A stretch of DNA of 34,341 bases from Bordetella parapertussis (GTDB taxonomy: Bacteria; Pseudomonadota; Gammaproteobacteria; Burkholderiales; Burkholderiaceae_B), in assembly GCA_945883615.1 (NCBI GenBank), contig CAMCYB010000018.1, positions 1 to 34,341 of the forward strand, given 5' to 3'. The notes beneath the pieces are model-generated. The model saw only the letters and a program-made list of their open reading frames with translations, made no database searches and was not told the origin of the DNA. Numbering within the stretch: position 1 is the first letter of the stretch; each line of letters starts with the position of its first letter. Below, piece by piece: positions 9,231 through 15,796 of the stretch. Position numbers and translations under genes: made by a program.

Positions 9231-12200
9231 TTAAGCCGCTTTAGTTGATTCTTGGCTGGTTTGCCACATTTCAGCCAGTGCACGACGATAATCAACTGGC
9301 ATTACTTTCACAAAATGCCCACGTGCTGAAGCCCAATTGCCTAAGATGTCACGGGCTCTAAAACTGCCTGTAAATTTAAAGTGATTTTCAATCAATGTTT
9401 TTAAAATAATGTCGTCTGTTTCGCGTGGTGCGTCGCGAGAAACACTGTGCCAAATTTCAATACCTTGAGTGGTTTTTTGGTTTGCACTACTGAGCACGGG
9501 CTCAATGTCAACCATAGTAAGGTTGCAATTCTCAGCGAAGCGACCTTCAGGGTCAAACACATACGCCACGCCCCCAGACATACCCGCTGCAAAGTTACGG
9601 CCGGTTTGCCCAAGCACCACAACTGTACCGCCAGTCATGTATTCGCAGCCATGGTCGCCATTCCCTTCAGCGACTGTGGCTGCACCAGAATTACGAACCG
9701 CAAAGCGTTCACCGGCTACGCCATTAAAGTAGGCTTCGCCACCCGTAGCGCCGTATAACACTGTGTTGCCGACAATAATTTGTTCAGGTCCAAAGCCACG
9801 AAAATCGTTGGGTGAGCGCACAATAATGCGGCCACCGGCCAAACCCTTGCCGACATAATCGTTGCCTTCGCCTACTAAATCAAGTGTGATGCCGTGAGCA
9901 AGAAATGCACCAAAACTTTGACCTGCCACACCATTTAACTGAATATGAATGGCATTTTCGTGCAAGCCTTCTTGGCCATATCGACGTGCCACTTGACCAG
10001 AAAGCATTGCACCCACGCTACGGTTACGGTTACGAACTGGCATAATGAACGAAACATTTTCGCCGCGTTCAATGGCGGCTTTGCTGCGTTCAATGAGTTG
10101 ATGGTCAAGTGCGACGTCAAGACCGTGGTCTTGTACGTCGGTATGACGACGGGCACCTTCAGTCGCAGGATTAAAAAATACTTTGTCAAAGTTTAAGCCG
10201 CGCGATTTCCAGTGGTCACTGCTTTTGCGGGTATCGAGCAAGTCGGTGCGACCAATTAAATCATCAAAGTGTTTAATACCCAGCTGTGCCATGATCTCGC
10301 GCACTTCCTCAGCAATAAAAAAGAAGTAGTTCACAACATGTTCAGGCTTGCCTTGAAACTTTTGGCGTAACACGGGGTCTTGAGTGGCTACACCCACTGG
10401 GCAGGTGTTGAGATGGCATTTACGCATCATGATGCAGCCTTCAACAACTAACGGTGCAGTTGCAAAACCAAATTCGTCAGCACCCAACAGACCGGCTACC
10501 ACCACGTCACGACCCGTTTTCATTTGGCCGTCAGCTTGCACGCGAATGCGACTACGCAGGTTGTTTAAGACCAACGTTTGCTGAGTTTCAGCCAAGCCTA
10601 GTTCCCAAGGCGTACCGGCGTGCTTGATAGATGAAATCGGTGAAGCACCGGTGCCACCGTCGTGACCTGCAATAGTCACGTGGTCAGCTTTGGCTTTCGC
10701 AACGCCAGCTGCAACCGTACCGACGCCTACTTCAGATACCAACTTAACCGATATGGAAGCCCGTTCATTGACGTTTTTAAGATCGTGGATCAGTTGTGCC
10801 AAATCTTCAATTGAGTAAATATCGTGATGGGGCGGTGGTGAAATTAAGCCCACACCGGGTACCGAGCAACGTAATTTAGCGATGTAGTCAGACACCTTGT
10901 GACCAGGCAACTGACCGCCTTCACCTGGTTTGGCGCCTTGTGCCATTTTGATCTGAATTTGATCAGCACTTGATAAGTATTCGGCGCTGACACCAAAACG
11001 ACCTGATGCAACTTGCTTAATGCGTGAACGCAATGAGTCACCGGCTTTAAGGGGAATGTCTGCTGCCACCCGATCAGCACCCAAAATAGAGGCTAGGGTG
11101 TCTTGGTCGGTAATGCCACTGCTACCGGTTTGAATTTCTTTGCGGTAACGTAGGTCGTCTTCGCCACCCTCACCTGTATTTGATTTTCCACCGATGCGGT
11201 TCATAGCAACTGCCAACACGGCATGTGCTTCAGTCGAAATTGAACCCAAAGACATGGCGCCGGTTACAAAGCGCTTCACAATTTCTTTCGCCGGTTCAAC
11301 TTCATCAATTGCGATGGCTTGGGCGGGGTCAACTTTGAACTCAAACAAACCGCGTAATGTCATCTGACGACGACTTTGATCATTAATAAGTTGTGCGTAC
11401 TCTTTGTAAGTGGTGTAGTTATTGCCACGGGTAGCATGCTGTAACTTCGCAATGGAGTCAGGGGTCCACATGTGGTCTTCACCGCGCACTCGAAAAGCGT
11501 ATTCACCACCGGCATCCAGTGCATGCTCTAAAACGGGGTCGTCGCTGAAAGCAGCACGGTGCGTACGCAAGGCTTCTTCAGCGACTTCAAAAATACCAAT
11601 GCCTTCGATGTTGCTGGCTGTACCGGCAAAATATTTCGTTACGAAAACAGACTGCAGGCCAACCGCTTCAAAAATTTGGGCACCACAGTACGACATAAAA
11701 GTCGAAATACCCATTTTTGACATGACTTTGTTCAAGCCTTTGCCAATTGCTTTGATGTAGTTTTTGATGGCTTTAGCGGCGTGTTCTGCATCGTCAGCTG
11801 CAGTTTGAATTGATTCAAACACTAAGTAGGGGTGAATGGCTTCAGCACCAAAGCCACCGAGCAACGCAAAGTGATGCACTTCGCGAGCCGAACCGGTTTC
11901 GACCACTAGACCGGTGTTAGTGCGAATGCCCGCACGAATTAAGTGTTGGTGAATGGCAGAGGTGGCTAACAATGCGGGTATGGCAACTTGGTCTGGCCCC
12001 ACCTGTCGGTCTGACAAAATCAACACGTTAAAGCCGCTGTGCACGGCATCAGTCGCGCTGGCACACAAAGCCGCTAAACGTGCTTCGATGCCTTCCGCAC
12101 CCCAGGCACTGGGGTAGGTGATGTCGACTTCATAGCTGCGAAATTTATTGCCCGTGTACTTTGCCACTGAGCGCAGTTGCGCCATGGCGTCTTGATCTAA

Positions 12201-13955
12201 AACAGGCTGTGTGACTTCGAGTCGTAGAGGCGGGTTAACGTTATTGATATCAAGCAAATTGGGCTTAGGGCCAATAAACGAAACCAAAGACATGACCATT
12301 TGTTCACGAATAGGGTCAATTGGCGGGTTGGTGACCTGTGCAAATAACTGACGAAAATAATTATAGAAAGGTTTTGACCGGCTTGATAACACCGCCAAGG
12401 GTGAGTCGTTACCCATTGAACCGGTGGCTTCCTCGCCGTTTGCCATCATGGGTTCGAGCACAAATTTAAAGTCTTCTTGCGTCCAGCCGAAAGCTTGCTG
12501 TTGGTCGAGCAAGGGAACGACTGAGCGGGTTGCTGCAAGAGTTGGTGCGTCGGGCGTGGGTAGTGATTCAAGCTTGACACGTAAACGATCGATCCATTGG
12601 CGATAAGGACGGCTGTTTGAAAGCTGCGATTTGATTTCTTCGTCTTCAATGATGCGACCCTGTTGCAAGTCGATCAAAAACATTTTGCCAGGCTGCAAGC
12701 GCCATTTCTTAACGATACGATTTTCTGGAATGGGCAAAGTACCGGCTTCAGACGCCATAATGACTAAGTTGTCATCAGTGATTAAATAACGCGCTGGGCG
12801 TAAACCGTTGCGGTCAAGTGTGGCACCAATTTGCTTACCATCAGTAAAAGCCACTGCAGCAGGGCCGTCCCAAGGTTCCATCATGGCGGCATGGTATTCA
12901 TAAAACGCACGACGTGATGAATCCATTTGGGTATGCTGTTCCCACGCTTCGGGAATCATCAACATCATGGCGTGTGCGAGTGAATAACCTGACATCACTA
13001 ATAATTCGAGGCAGTTATCAAATGTGGCTGTGTCAGATTGGCCGGAATACACAATGGGGTAAAGCTTAGCCAGATCGTCGCCCAATACAGCTGATTTCAT
13101 CATGCCCTCGCGGGCACGCAACCAGTTAAAATTACCTTTGACAGTGTTAATTTCACCATTATGCGCAATCATGCGGTAAGGGTGAGCCAGTGGCCACGCT
13201 GGAAAGGTGTTGGTTGAAAAACGTTGGTGCACCAACGCTAAAGCTGATTCAGTGCGGCTGTCAGCCAAGTCAAGATAGTACTGACCCACTTGATTAGCCA
13301 ACAATAAACCTTTGTAAACTACGGTGCGAACAGACGCCGAGGGTACAAAATATTCAGTACCATGTGCTAAATTCATTGCATGAATGGCATGACTTGCCGT
13401 TTTGCGAATCACATATAACTTGCGTTCAAGTGCATCTGGCACTCTGACATCCGCACCGCGACCAACAAACAACTGGCGAATGACCGGTTCGCAGGCGCGA
13501 ACAGTTTCAGACATGGGCATGTTGCGGTCAACGGGCACGTCACGCCAGCCCAACACAATTTGACCTTCAGCCTTGACCGCGCGCTCGAGCGTTTGCTCGC
13601 AGGCTAACCGCGATGCGATTTCTTTAGGCAAAAACACCATGCAGACACCGTATTCGCCAGGGGCGGGCAGTTCAATGCTCTGCTTAGCCATTTCTTCACT
13701 GTACAACGTGTCGGGTATTTGAATCAAAATACCGGCGCCGTCGCCCATAAGTTTGTCGGCACCGACCGCACCCCGATGGTCTAGGTTTTCAAGAATTTTC
13801 AAACCCTGCGACACGATTGAGTGCGCAGCCCTACCTTCAATATGCGCAACGAAACCCACGCCACAGGCATCGTGTTCGTGAACACTTGAGTAAAGGCCTT
13901 GGTCTTTTGGTATACCTGCAGGCTTACTCACAAAATTTAAAGGGAAGGTGGTCAT
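9231..13955 (-). CDS. gltB: Glutamate synthase (NADPH) large subunit
   Basis: Alpha subunit of glutamate synthase: releases ammonia from glutamine and channels it to 2-oxoglutarate. From the ATG at 13955 it is 1574 aa. That start is chosen over the ATG at 13976 because CGGAG lies 7 bases upstream. Order of domains: short propeptide then class-II glutaminase with Cys31 (DACGVGF), central domain, FMN-binding synthase domain ([25 protein letters not shown]), the 3Fe-4S ligands in [12 protein letters not shown], and the C-terminal glycine-rich beta-helix ([21 protein letters not shown]). It heads the 14-kb minus-strand block with gltD next. Confidence 0.97.
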
Positions 13956-14037
13956 CTGTAAACTCCGATCGTGCATATTGCAAAAGGAATATTAGATTAA
14001 CTCACATTATGCTAAATACAAAGGCTTTTTCTAGTAG

Positions 14038-14091
14038 TGCGTCCCCATTAATAAAAATAAACACTTAAGTGCTTATTAAAATAGGGACGCA
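14038..14091. repeat. Nested palindrome after the transposase-like gene (REP-like candidate)
   Basis: A 54-bp imperfect palindrome. The outer arms are perfect 8-mers (TGCGTCCC at 14038-14045 and GGGACGCA at 14084-14091), the middle arms are AT-rich (ATTAATAA against TTATTAAAAT), and the centre is a perfect 10-bp palindrome CACTTAAGTG at 14062-14071. It begins at the base after the stop codon of the gene at 14092-14757. Palindromes next to Y1 transposase genes are the hallmark of REP/RAYT pairs, so this may be the cognate element; only one copy is visible in this window. It could also act as a terminator. Confidence 0.6.
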
Positions 14092-14757
14092 TCATTCTAA
14101 TTTTCTAGGCCGACCTCGTTTAGCCGGTGCGACACGCCTTGATGCAATTTGATTCATGTTTTGTAAAAAGCTCACGCCACCCAGCGCCCATTGACCATGC
14201 AAAGCTGACTCAATATGATCTAAGGACTGCCTGTTTACACCCTCTGCCAAAATCGATTTGTAGTGGGCTTGGCGGGCAAATGGCGTGTTGCCACAGGCCC
14301 AATAATCAGGGTGGTCAACCAACCAAGGGGTTAAACGACCCCCAACCCCAACATGTTGTTGCGCTGAAGACCAGCGCCAGTCTTGGGCGTGTTGCACCAA
14401 ATTCAAACGCACGGGGGCTTGTTCGAGCCAAACCAAAGTAGGTATAACCCATGCGTGAGGTTCAATTAAAGCCGTTTTATAGCGACCCGCAAAGATTGTT
14501 CCCATGTCAACAACCGCGGCTAAATGACGGCCAAGAGCTTGCATCACATGACTCAGTTGCGCAACTGAAGGGGGGGTGCATAAAATATGTAGACCTTGAG
14601 GTGTGATGCACCAACCATGAACAGGTAGATTTTGTTCAATGGCGTATACACCCAACCAGCCAAAAACATCAGCGTAGGGAATTGACGTCACATGCGCTGG
14701 AAATCTTACCCCAGCTAGCGTTGGTGTTTGCGGTGCAAAGAGGCGGGCAAGTCGCAT
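14092..14757 (-). CDS. REP-associated tyrosine transposase-like protein, active site degenerate
   Basis: 221-aa protein related to REP-associated tyrosine transposases (RAYT, Y1/HUH fold). The C-terminal two thirds follow the family: GRYKTALIE, LEQAPVRLNLVQHAQDWRWSSAQ, HPDYWACGNTPFARQAHY, WALGGVSF, RRVAPAKRGRPRK. The catalytic parts differ. The usual MPNHVHLL reads TPQGLHIL (residues 52-59), leaving only His57 of the two histidines, and the usual RYIELNPVR reads VWLEQAPVR, with Trp110 in place of the expected tyrosine. This judgement comes from family recall, not an alignment run. The tail holds an AT-hook-like KRGRPRK. Strand transfer is unlikely; it may be a domesticated DNA-binding protein or a decaying gene, though the frame is intact. 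Divergent from rpoH. Confidence 0.82.
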   Translation of the reverse strand: MRLARLFAPQTPTLAGVRFPAHVTSIPYADVFGWLGVYAIEQNLPVHGWCITPQGLHILCTPPSVAQLSHVMQALGRHLAAVVDMGTIFAGRYKTALIEPHAWVIPTLVWLEQAPVRLNLVQHAQDWRWSSAQQHVGVGGRLTPWLVDHPDYWACGNTPFARQAHYKSILAEGVNRQSLDHIESALHGQWALGGVSFLQNMNQIASRRVAPAKRGRPRKLE

Positions 14758-14805: not shown

Positions 14806-14832
14806 TTAGCACTCATCTACTGTGAGTGCTAA
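14806..14832. promoter_or_regulatory. CIRCE operator (HrcA site) upstream of rpoH
   Basis: TTAGCACTC at 14806-14814, nine spacer bases, GAGTGCTAA at 14824-14832: an exact match to the CIRCE consensus bound by the heat-shock repressor HrcA. It lies about 80 bp before the rpoH ATG. It also lies in the shared intergenic region with the transposase-like gene on the other strand, 49 bp from that ATG. Confidence 0.95.
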
Positions 14833-14911: not shown

Positions 14912-15796
14912 ATGACAACAGCACAGACACTTGCTATAGCACCTCAAACCCTAGCGGCAGCCATTGCCAACCCAGGTTCTTTAGGCTCTATTCAAGCTTA
15001 CATCAGCACGGTAAACCGTCTGCCCATGCTCTCAGCCGAGCAAGAGACAGATTTAGGCCGTCGTCTGCAGCAAGATGGCGACATTGAAGCCGCGCGCGAG
15101 TTGATATTGTCTCATTTGCGCCTAGTGGTGTCTGTCGCACGCCAATACTTGGGCTATGGCTTACCGCATGCTGATCTTATTCAAGAGGGTAATGTCGGTT
15201 TAATGAAGGCCGTTAAACGTTACGACCCTGAGCGTGGCGTGCGCTTAATGACCTTTGCCGTGCACTGGATCAAAGCTGAAATACACGAATTCGTTGTGCG
15301 CAATTGGCGCATGGTAAAAGTGGCCACCACCAAAGCGCAACGCAAACTCTTTTTTAATTTACGCAGCATGCGCGCAGATGGTGAAACCCTTGATACACAG
15401 GGCGTTGAAACCATCGCAAAAAAACTCAACGTTCGCGAATCAGACGTTCGTGAAATGGAAGTCCGTTTATCAGGTCGTGAAATGCCCATCGACGCACCCA
15501 GCGACGATGCCGAAGCGTTTGCACCTATTACTTATTTGTCAGACGAAGGTTACGATGACCCCGTTGAAGTCATTGCACGCCAAGATCAAGCTACGCTTGA
15601 GTCTGAGGGCTTAACTCATGCAATCGCGCAGCTCGACTCCCGTTCACGCCGTATTGTGCAAGCTCGCTGGTTAGCTGAAGATGAAAACTCAACTTTGGCC
15701 GATTTAGCGCAAGAATTTGGGGTGTCGGCTGAACGTATTCGCCAAATCGAAGCAGCCGCCCTTAAAAAAATGCGTTTAAATTTAGCCGCAACCTAA
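14912..15796 (+). CDS. rpoH: RNA polymerase heat-shock sigma factor RpoH (sigma-32)
   Basis: Sigma factor for heat-shock promoters, 294 aa. Region 2 is clear (RLVVSVARQYLGYGLPHADLIQEGN type segment around 70-94, then WIKAEIHEFVVRNWRMVK). The RpoH box QRKLFFNLR at residues 143-151, which sets this family apart from RpoD and RpoS, is present. Region 4 ends in a helix-turn-helix with SAERIRQIEAAALKKMR. No good Shine-Dalgarno precedes the ATG (ACAAACAGCCT), so translation may be weak or controlled by mRNA structure; the latter is inference. A perfect CIRCE lies in the leader, so HrcA probably represses it. A candidate terminator follows at 15847. Confidence 0.97.
   Translation: MTTAQTLAIAPQTLAAAIANPGSLGSIQAYISTVNRLPMLSAEQETDLGRRLQQDGDIEAARELILSHLRLVVSVARQYLGYGLPHADLIQEGNVGLMKAVKRYDPERGVRLMTFAVHWIKAEIHEFVVRNWRMVKVATTKAQRKLFFNLRSMRADGETLDTQGVETIAKKLNVRESDVREMEVRLSGREMPIDAPSDDAEAFAPITYLSDEGYDDPVEVIARQDQATLESEGLTHAIAQLDSRSRRIVQARWLAEDENSTLADLAQEFGVSAERIRQIEAAALKKMRLNLAAT

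Follow-up and report, generated by a model that had tools for sequence, protein, structure and literature searches.

A 221-codon gene on the minus strand of a 34,341-nt stretch of Bordetella parapertussis DNA (GenBank assembly GCA_945883615.1, contig CAMCYB010000018.1; hereafter the window, meaning the stretch at its full length) encodes a relative of the REP/TIR-associated tyrosine transposases (RAYTs, or TnpAREP; REP, repetitive extragenic palindrome; TIR, terminal inverted repeat) that is catalytically dead and under purifying selection. Since gltB, encoding the large subunit of glutamate synthase, lies downstream on the same strand, the gene is the upstream neighbor of gltB. Between the two we found a new paired motif, TGCGTCCC...GGGACGCACCC, that spans 47–49 bp just upstream of the putative gltB promoter. 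We propose that a RAYT settled beside gltB and was probably converted to a non-cutting, DNA-binding regulator of gltBD, with an operator derived from its own terminal repeats.

The preliminary description of this gene reported an intact frame that had lost both the HUH motif (two histidines flanking a hydrophobic residue) and the catalytic tyrosine, and the residue alignment confirms this. Homologue figures given here refer to the best 120 of 316 relatives from a protein search, and residue counts to the first 116 of these plus the window protein. Histidine was absent from position 55 (0/117; four sequences were gapped there), as was any HxH (0/117). With histidine at position 57 in only 4/117, His57 is not representative as an inherited half of the motif. 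Beyond what had been described, a further residue is lost: Ala114-Pro115 stands where the Asn of Y---NP is expected, and the Asn four residues past Tyr is a metal ligand in TnpAREP (PMC6006769). Structure prediction, which had been named as a check, gave a model with the Y1 transposase fold, of the RAYT/TnpAREP type (match to 4er8). The protein scored 21.4 bits with NCBIfam NF047646, under the cut-off of 80, and 18 of the 23 members of set A1 matched that model at E <= 1. Its C-terminal part, where subclass 2.1 RAYTs have a helix-turn-helix/DnaA-C-like extension, is present and conserved, yet has no Pfam helix-turn-helix match; neither Pfam nor NCBIfam found a regulator family in the protein, and a sequence search of solved structures with it returned no meaningful match. 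The protein is RAYT-derived but fails the defining catalytic features, and is not classed as a RAYT transposase.

The loss is common to relatives that occupy the same place. Locus figures are from the best 80 of 196 relatives in a genome scan, whose titles mostly name Alcaligenaceae genera, and "81 sources" denotes these loci plus the window. Orthologues beside gltB with the same loss, for which the preliminary description proposed a search, were found: gltB was detected in 76/80 loci and in 75 of them starts 59–1175 nt downstream of the gene on the same strand, and Trp110 was present in 79/79 copies recovered with their start (two loci begin inside the gene). In L073, gltB lies on the opposite side of the gene. 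No stop interrupted the homologous match in any of the 81 sources, and RGRP, which we take to be an AT-hook-like core, occurred near the C-terminus in 78/79 copies recovered with their start. Trp110 and many further residues are invariant among the relatives, and positions 55 and 57 vary freely. The four homologues ranked next after the first 116 carry PF01797, with Tyr in 4/4 and HUH in 3/4. The ratio of nonsynonymous to synonymous change (dN/dS, omega), another check that had been named, was estimated by the Nei-Gojobori method, leaving out the many wider pairs that were saturated at synonymous sites, and was far below 1. Omega was 0.047 between the window and L002 (159 codons), with medians of 0.020 in Achromobacter (190 pairs), 0.079 in Bordetella (61 usable pairs of 66) and 0.100 in Pigmentiphaga (15 pairs); it was 0.118 in the Zwartia/Sheuella group (one usable pair of 78) and 0.089 for L003–L029, and the highest value for a single pair was 0.187. 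Median omegas of gltB and rpoH in the same groups were 0.018–0.104. The catalytically dead gene is under purifying selection.

Read on the minus strand, the gene's stop codon is immediately followed by the left arm of the motif, TGCGTCCC. The motif forms a DNA hairpin in silico on that strand (z -4.70), and GCGTCCC occurs three times in the window, the two copies in the motif being the only ones that form a pair. Motifs were scored with a position weight matrix (PWM) trained on 36 sources and with R1, a sequence-only model built from 51 aligned motifs; training loci were also counted, and the window, which scored 46.0 (PWM) and 39.8 bits (R1), belongs to both training sets. The best PWM site scored 42.5–82.1 and lay 113–267 bp before gltB in 74/81 sources (38 of the 74 outside the training set), and the highest second-best score was 3.4. 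Measured between the outer edges of its arms, the motif spans 47 bp in 55 of 74, 48 bp in 12 and 49 bp in 7, and the inside of the motif is AT-rich and poorly conserved. Among the seven exceptions, L002 has Ns at this place, and L005, L044, L053, and L055 are loci without a detected gltB. In L073, the motif is located at gltB, and the gene is 8.2 kb away. The preliminary description had suggested that the protein might act on the gltB or rpoH promoter; gltB stands as a candidate, with the motif before its putative promoter, and the rpoH half of the suggestion has no support, since the one strong motif site of 74/81 sources is that before gltB and rpoH has a CIRCE-type repeat instead (CIRCE, controlling inverted repeat of chaperone expression).

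A TIR consensus, GGGGWSAS, has been published (PMC3733652), and the motif arms of L003 and L029, GGGGACAG, fit it. REP repeats of the CGTC type, prompted by the GCGTCCC arms, were considered and rejected, since the TIR consensus fits better; CGTC repeats are described as not associated with transposase genes (PMC3733652). The three arm strings are absent from the main text of that paper, and Rfam returned nothing for the window at its gathering cut-offs. The hairpin was also considered as an intrinsic terminator of the gene and rejected, because no T run comes after it and the terminator scan lists none at this place. In five Pigmentiphaga-type loci (L006, L010, L016, L038, and L062), an extra GATGCGTCCC arm sits right at the gene's start codon, where it could perhaps be a site of self-control.

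Gene and motif also co-occur across the family. In a table compiled from match lists, with unlisted genomes of G001–G268 counted as lacking, 217 of the 268 family genomes have the gene, 215 the motif and 233 gltB. Among the 233 gltB genomes, the motif was present in 212/215 with the gene vs. 1/18 without it. Three genomes stand outside this comparison: G216 (gene and motif, no gltB match), G224 (gene alone), and G137 (just a motif match at E 0.009). Six gene-less loci for which the gltB upstream region was in hand (L158–L163) have no motif, and L157, a gene-less gltB locus, has only a left-arm-like site with a score of 0.0. The gltB upstream regions of L158–L163 carry other sequences, and gltB control may have been replaced there.

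Catalytically intact relatives elsewhere in the order, the Burkholderiales, provide a comparison. A query with one of them, P0121, found matches in 118 of 250 genomes of the order, and linked RAYTs were counted from examined loci drawn from the best matches, leaving out L203 (a near copy of L202) and L241–L243 (repeats of other loci). In 35 loci outside the family, and in four from a diverged clade within it (L146, L147, L150, and L151), the gene precedes gltB on the same strand at a distance of 72–530 nt. HUH and Tyr are intact in 18 of these 39 gltB-linked copies and not in 21. In the lost copies the Tyr position holds Trp, Phe, Ala, Ser, Val, or Leu, and the first His position Arg, Glu, Gln, Ala, Ser, or Gly. 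The diverged clade, which also includes L148, has lost HUH and has Phe for Tyr except in L147, which keeps Tyr; in the four linked members gltB is immediately downstream, and the right arm of the motif is GGGTCAGACCCC. Glu at the first His is common to one clade outside the family (L212, L215, L216, L219, L221, L222, and L229), most of whose members have the second His; this Glu type is a different route to loss.

Linkage to gltB and loss of catalysis go together. Outside the family, 18 linked copies are intact and 17 lost, vs. 46 intact and 2 lost among unlinked copies (Fisher's exact test, P = 2e-6, with kinship ignored). The unlinked set comprises eight earlier copies plus 40 hand-picked among matches in the order where gltB lay elsewhere, 39 of the 40 being intact. 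For nine of the 40 whose gltB place was unlisted, no gltB was present in the 7–12.5 kb around the gene, the searched range of one of them (L258/L292) ending near a contig edge. The two unlinked lost copies are L264, in G341, and L178, at 3.8 kb from gltB; in the genome of L178, the motif is still present at gltB (L237). A tree of 74 copies, built without the columns around the catalytic residues, required nine changes of state (7–9 across bootstrap replicates, with a minimum of 5 imposed by well-supported branches), and a single clade of all lost copies was rejected (approximately unbiased test, P = 3.8e-48). Since a regain of HUH and Tyr is unlikely, we read most of these changes as losses.

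Terminal repeats that fit GGGGWSAS are frequent in the intact linked copies, and L174 has a perfect 23-bp pair whose 3' copy makes up the motif's right arm. By sequence, the motif arms are similar to the terminal repeats found in relatives with intact catalysis. The 5' terminal repeat was found in 15/25 intact vs. 4/49 lost copies, and the matches in the family proper (L010 and L077) look like chance. No 5' repeat precedes the window gene within 220 bp, and its 3' paired motif is present. By a looser pattern, the gltB-side motif was present in 16/18 intact linked copies, 17/21 lost linked copies and 3/22 gltB loci without a linked RAYT, where shuffled sequences led us to expect 0.1, 0.3, and 0.9, respectively. 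A strict pattern found 15/18, 11/21, and 2/22 and overlooked motifs visible by eye, and the looser one overlooked L175 and L185, both of which the strict pattern matched. In loci matching the strict pattern, the arms are offset by 46–51 bp and the distance to TTG is mostly 12–13 nt.

We suggest the following course of events. A RAYT would have settled beside gltB early in the Burkholderiales, and in several lineages, including the window's family, it would have been converted to a protein that binds DNA and no longer cuts it. This protein would keep the ancestral DNA recognition and bind both arms, the old terminal repeats, upstream of the gltB promoter, presumably as double-stranded DNA, and its binding would control transcription of gltBD. 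At a spacing of ~48 bp, the two arms would face nearly the same side of the helix, an arrangement that would suit a dimer bridging them. Because the motif lies directly upstream of the -35 box, we lean slightly toward activation rather than repression. It is therefore not in the gltB mRNA from that promoter, and a role in a leader RNA from there is unlikely, although transcripts reading through from the gene would include it. The preliminary description's idea of selection for a non-transposing role, e.g., binding of a palindrome, gains support from the linkage, the low dN/dS and the palindromic, terminal-repeat-like motif that tracks the gene, and regulation would be the form of that role. 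For the order as a whole we incline, with less assurance, to the view that the RAYT before gltB repeatedly and independently turned into a transcription factor, dropping the distal repeat and keeping the gltB-side pair as operator, and that the catalytically intact copies there are living intermediates that already regulate gltBD. Active orthologues had been named beforehand as evidence against a non-transposing role. Taken literally, they exist outside the family, as the 18 intact copies linked to gltB; we read them as ancestry and not as refutation.

Several observations count against the proposed conversion. Outside the family, HUH and Tyr persist in half of the linked copies; regulation and cutting therefore need not exclude each other. 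Tyr is kept in 6 of the 21 lost linked copies (L147, L207, L209, L211, L215, and L231), which, to judge from that residue, might retain some activity, and neither pattern found a motif in the linked lost copies L184, L209, and L211. The motif has drifted in L064 (score 7.0) and L069 (31.4), both still before gltB. In the window itself, the arm GGGGACGC differs from GGGGWSAS at one position, the right arm has ACTA vs. ACCC in most relatives, and a consensus promoter scan listed other, weak sites and not the one at 13994..14021. Part of the per-position information of the motif stems from the choice of the training set. In the family table, G217 has the motif without a detectable gene (locus L164, with a full motif), and in three genomes with both gene and gltB no motif match was found: G071 (Ns at the place), G229 (gene and gltB on different contigs), and G244 (fragmentary). 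Nine of the 18 gene-less genomes look like one clade, having adjacent labels, and several others have only partial gltB; the co-loss therefore rests on few independent events.

The motif could also serve another regulator. It might be the operator of a different nitrogen regulator, with the dead RAYT holding another job (e.g., binding single-stranded hairpins in replication) and both merely adjoining gltB. Linkage between neighbors would by itself yield the co-occurrence, and G217 is a case of motif without gene. We consider this explanation unlikely, however, as the motif remains at gltB where the gene lies elsewhere (L073), yet is absent at gltB in the gene-less L158–L163, and its arms resemble the terminal repeats of the same transposase class. 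This argument has a weak point: the three gltB loci that have a motif match without a linked RAYT (L208, L220, and L237) are all from genomes with a RAYT elsewhere (G479, G341, and G322), but the same holds for 11/22 of all gltB loci without a linked RAYT, and the L220 match (G341) looks like chance. That the arms look like old terminal repeats would suit a fossil transposon end, with the protein retained for some purpose unconnected with gltB. Even decay would be expected of a fossil, whereas at positions unused for choosing the training set the ACCC holds 1.4–1.6 bits and the promoter TTGC 1.1–1.7 bits, against 0.0–0.2 bits inside the motif. The spacing is moreover nearly fixed, and most lost copies no longer have the 5' repeat; we regard a fossil as improbable.

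Other explanations concern the protein alone. A dead copy might act as an antagonist, occupying transposon ends against active RAYTs, and dead transposases can be inhibitors in other systems. PF01797 was found in 0/5 family genomes tested, a search that the dead copies themselves also escape, and most genomes have one or two motif matches, the number that a single palindromic copy should give when both strands are scanned (some have three or four), which makes antagonism very improbable. The invariance of Trp110 and many other residues might instead reflect a rearranged active site that still cuts DNA, but with Tyr and Asn replaced, HUH absent, and positions 55 and 57 freely variable, this is scarcely credible. 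Recent decay, i.e., a pseudogene caught before stops appear, would account for the lost key residues; we rejected it and give it next to no chance, since omega is far below 1, frames are uninterrupted in 81/81 sources, and the loss is common to distant relatives. Conversion of a RAYT to a regulator of gltBD remains the explanation that we prefer.

Among known systems, the window protein is closest to the RAYT/TnpAREP proteins (class 2 of the TnpA-Y1 superfamily), by its modelled fold (4er8), by the C-terminal blocks that it has in common with intact relatives bearing NH.H and YIELNP, and by arms near GGGGWSAS. Within that class, subclass 2.1 ("TIRYT") is nearest, a placement that rests on length (221 aa vs. 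a subclass median of 238 aa), on a putative C-terminal extension and on the Y motif of the intact relatives (PMC6006769). It differs from RAYT/TIRYT in lacking HUH, the tyrosine, the Asn ligand and a 5' repeat, and in being fixed beside gltB. The 2018 survey retained, as most likely active, the 722 of its 924 sequences that had both HuH and Y, and missing core motifs were taken to suggest non-functional proteins (PMC6006769). A candidate operator beside a -35 box recalls the classical operator-binding regulators of gltBD, from which the window protein differs in that Pfam and NCBIfam find no regulator family in it. TldR proteins have lost nuclease activity. Like the protein proposed here, TldR is an IS200/IS605-type transposon protein turned transcription regulator, but it is related to TnpB and RNA-guided (PMC13418256), whereas the window protein is of the TnpA/RAYT type. 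TldR would be the nearest published parallel that we found for the mode of action. Our literature search returned no paper recognizable as dealing with a dead RAYT or a RAYT at gltB; Bertels et al. (2017), on domesticated RAYTs and the likeliest to touch on it, lay outside that search.

Coordinates of the gene, the motif and their surroundings are collected in Table 1. The genes at 9231..13976 and 14912..15796 are presumed, from their sequences, to be gltB and rpoH. A divergent rpoH lies upstream of the gene, 192–5888 nt off, in 65/80 loci. Between the window gene and rpoH, the repeat TTAGCACTC-N9-GAGTGCTAA is presumably an HrcA site, and a CIRCE match with up to 3 substitutions occurs within 1.5 kb upstream of the gene in 24/81 sources. 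This suggests HrcA control of rpoH and perhaps also of the divergent dead-RAYT gene.

Table 1. Features of the window discussed in the text (., no strand)
Feature	Coordinates	Strand	Basis or remark
RAYT/TnpAREP-derived protein, 221 aa, catalytically dead	14092..14757	-	Residues read from alignment, fold modelled
Codons 55-57, Gly-Leu-His, where HUH formerly stood	14587..14595	-	Codon positions and alignment
Trp110 codon (TGG), replacing the catalytic tyrosine	14428..14430	-	W in 117/117 (window protein and 116 homologues)
Ala114 codon (GCC), replacing the Asn metal ligand	14416..14418	-	Asn in 0/117 (window protein and 116 homologues)
Operator candidate: inverted motif pair with arms at 14038-14049 and 14080-14091	14038..14091	.	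12-bp arms, 92% complementary
Inner palindrome of the paired motif	14056..14077	.	Inner repeat visible in only part of the relatives
Putative gltB promoter: TTGTAT, 16 nt, TAATCT	13994..14021	-	Placed by spacing in relatives
gltB (presumed), glutamate synthase large subunit	9231..13976	-	Downstream, same strand; synteny
rpoH (presumed), heat-shock sigma factor, divergent	14912..15796	+	Synteny
CIRCE-type perfect inverted repeat in the interval from the gene to rpoH	14806..14832	+	0 mismatches, expected 0.01

To our knowledge, the benefit that RAYTs bring to their hosts is an open question. The gltB site offers a natural series at one locus, from a transposase whose catalytic residues are intact, with repeats on both sides, to a dead protein with the promoter-side pair only. 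Several independent losses can be compared there, and regulation of genes by RAYTs through their repeats becomes testable at a central gene of nitrogen assimilation. To discard RAYTs without HUH and Tyr as non-functional is to discard a family that is under purifying selection.
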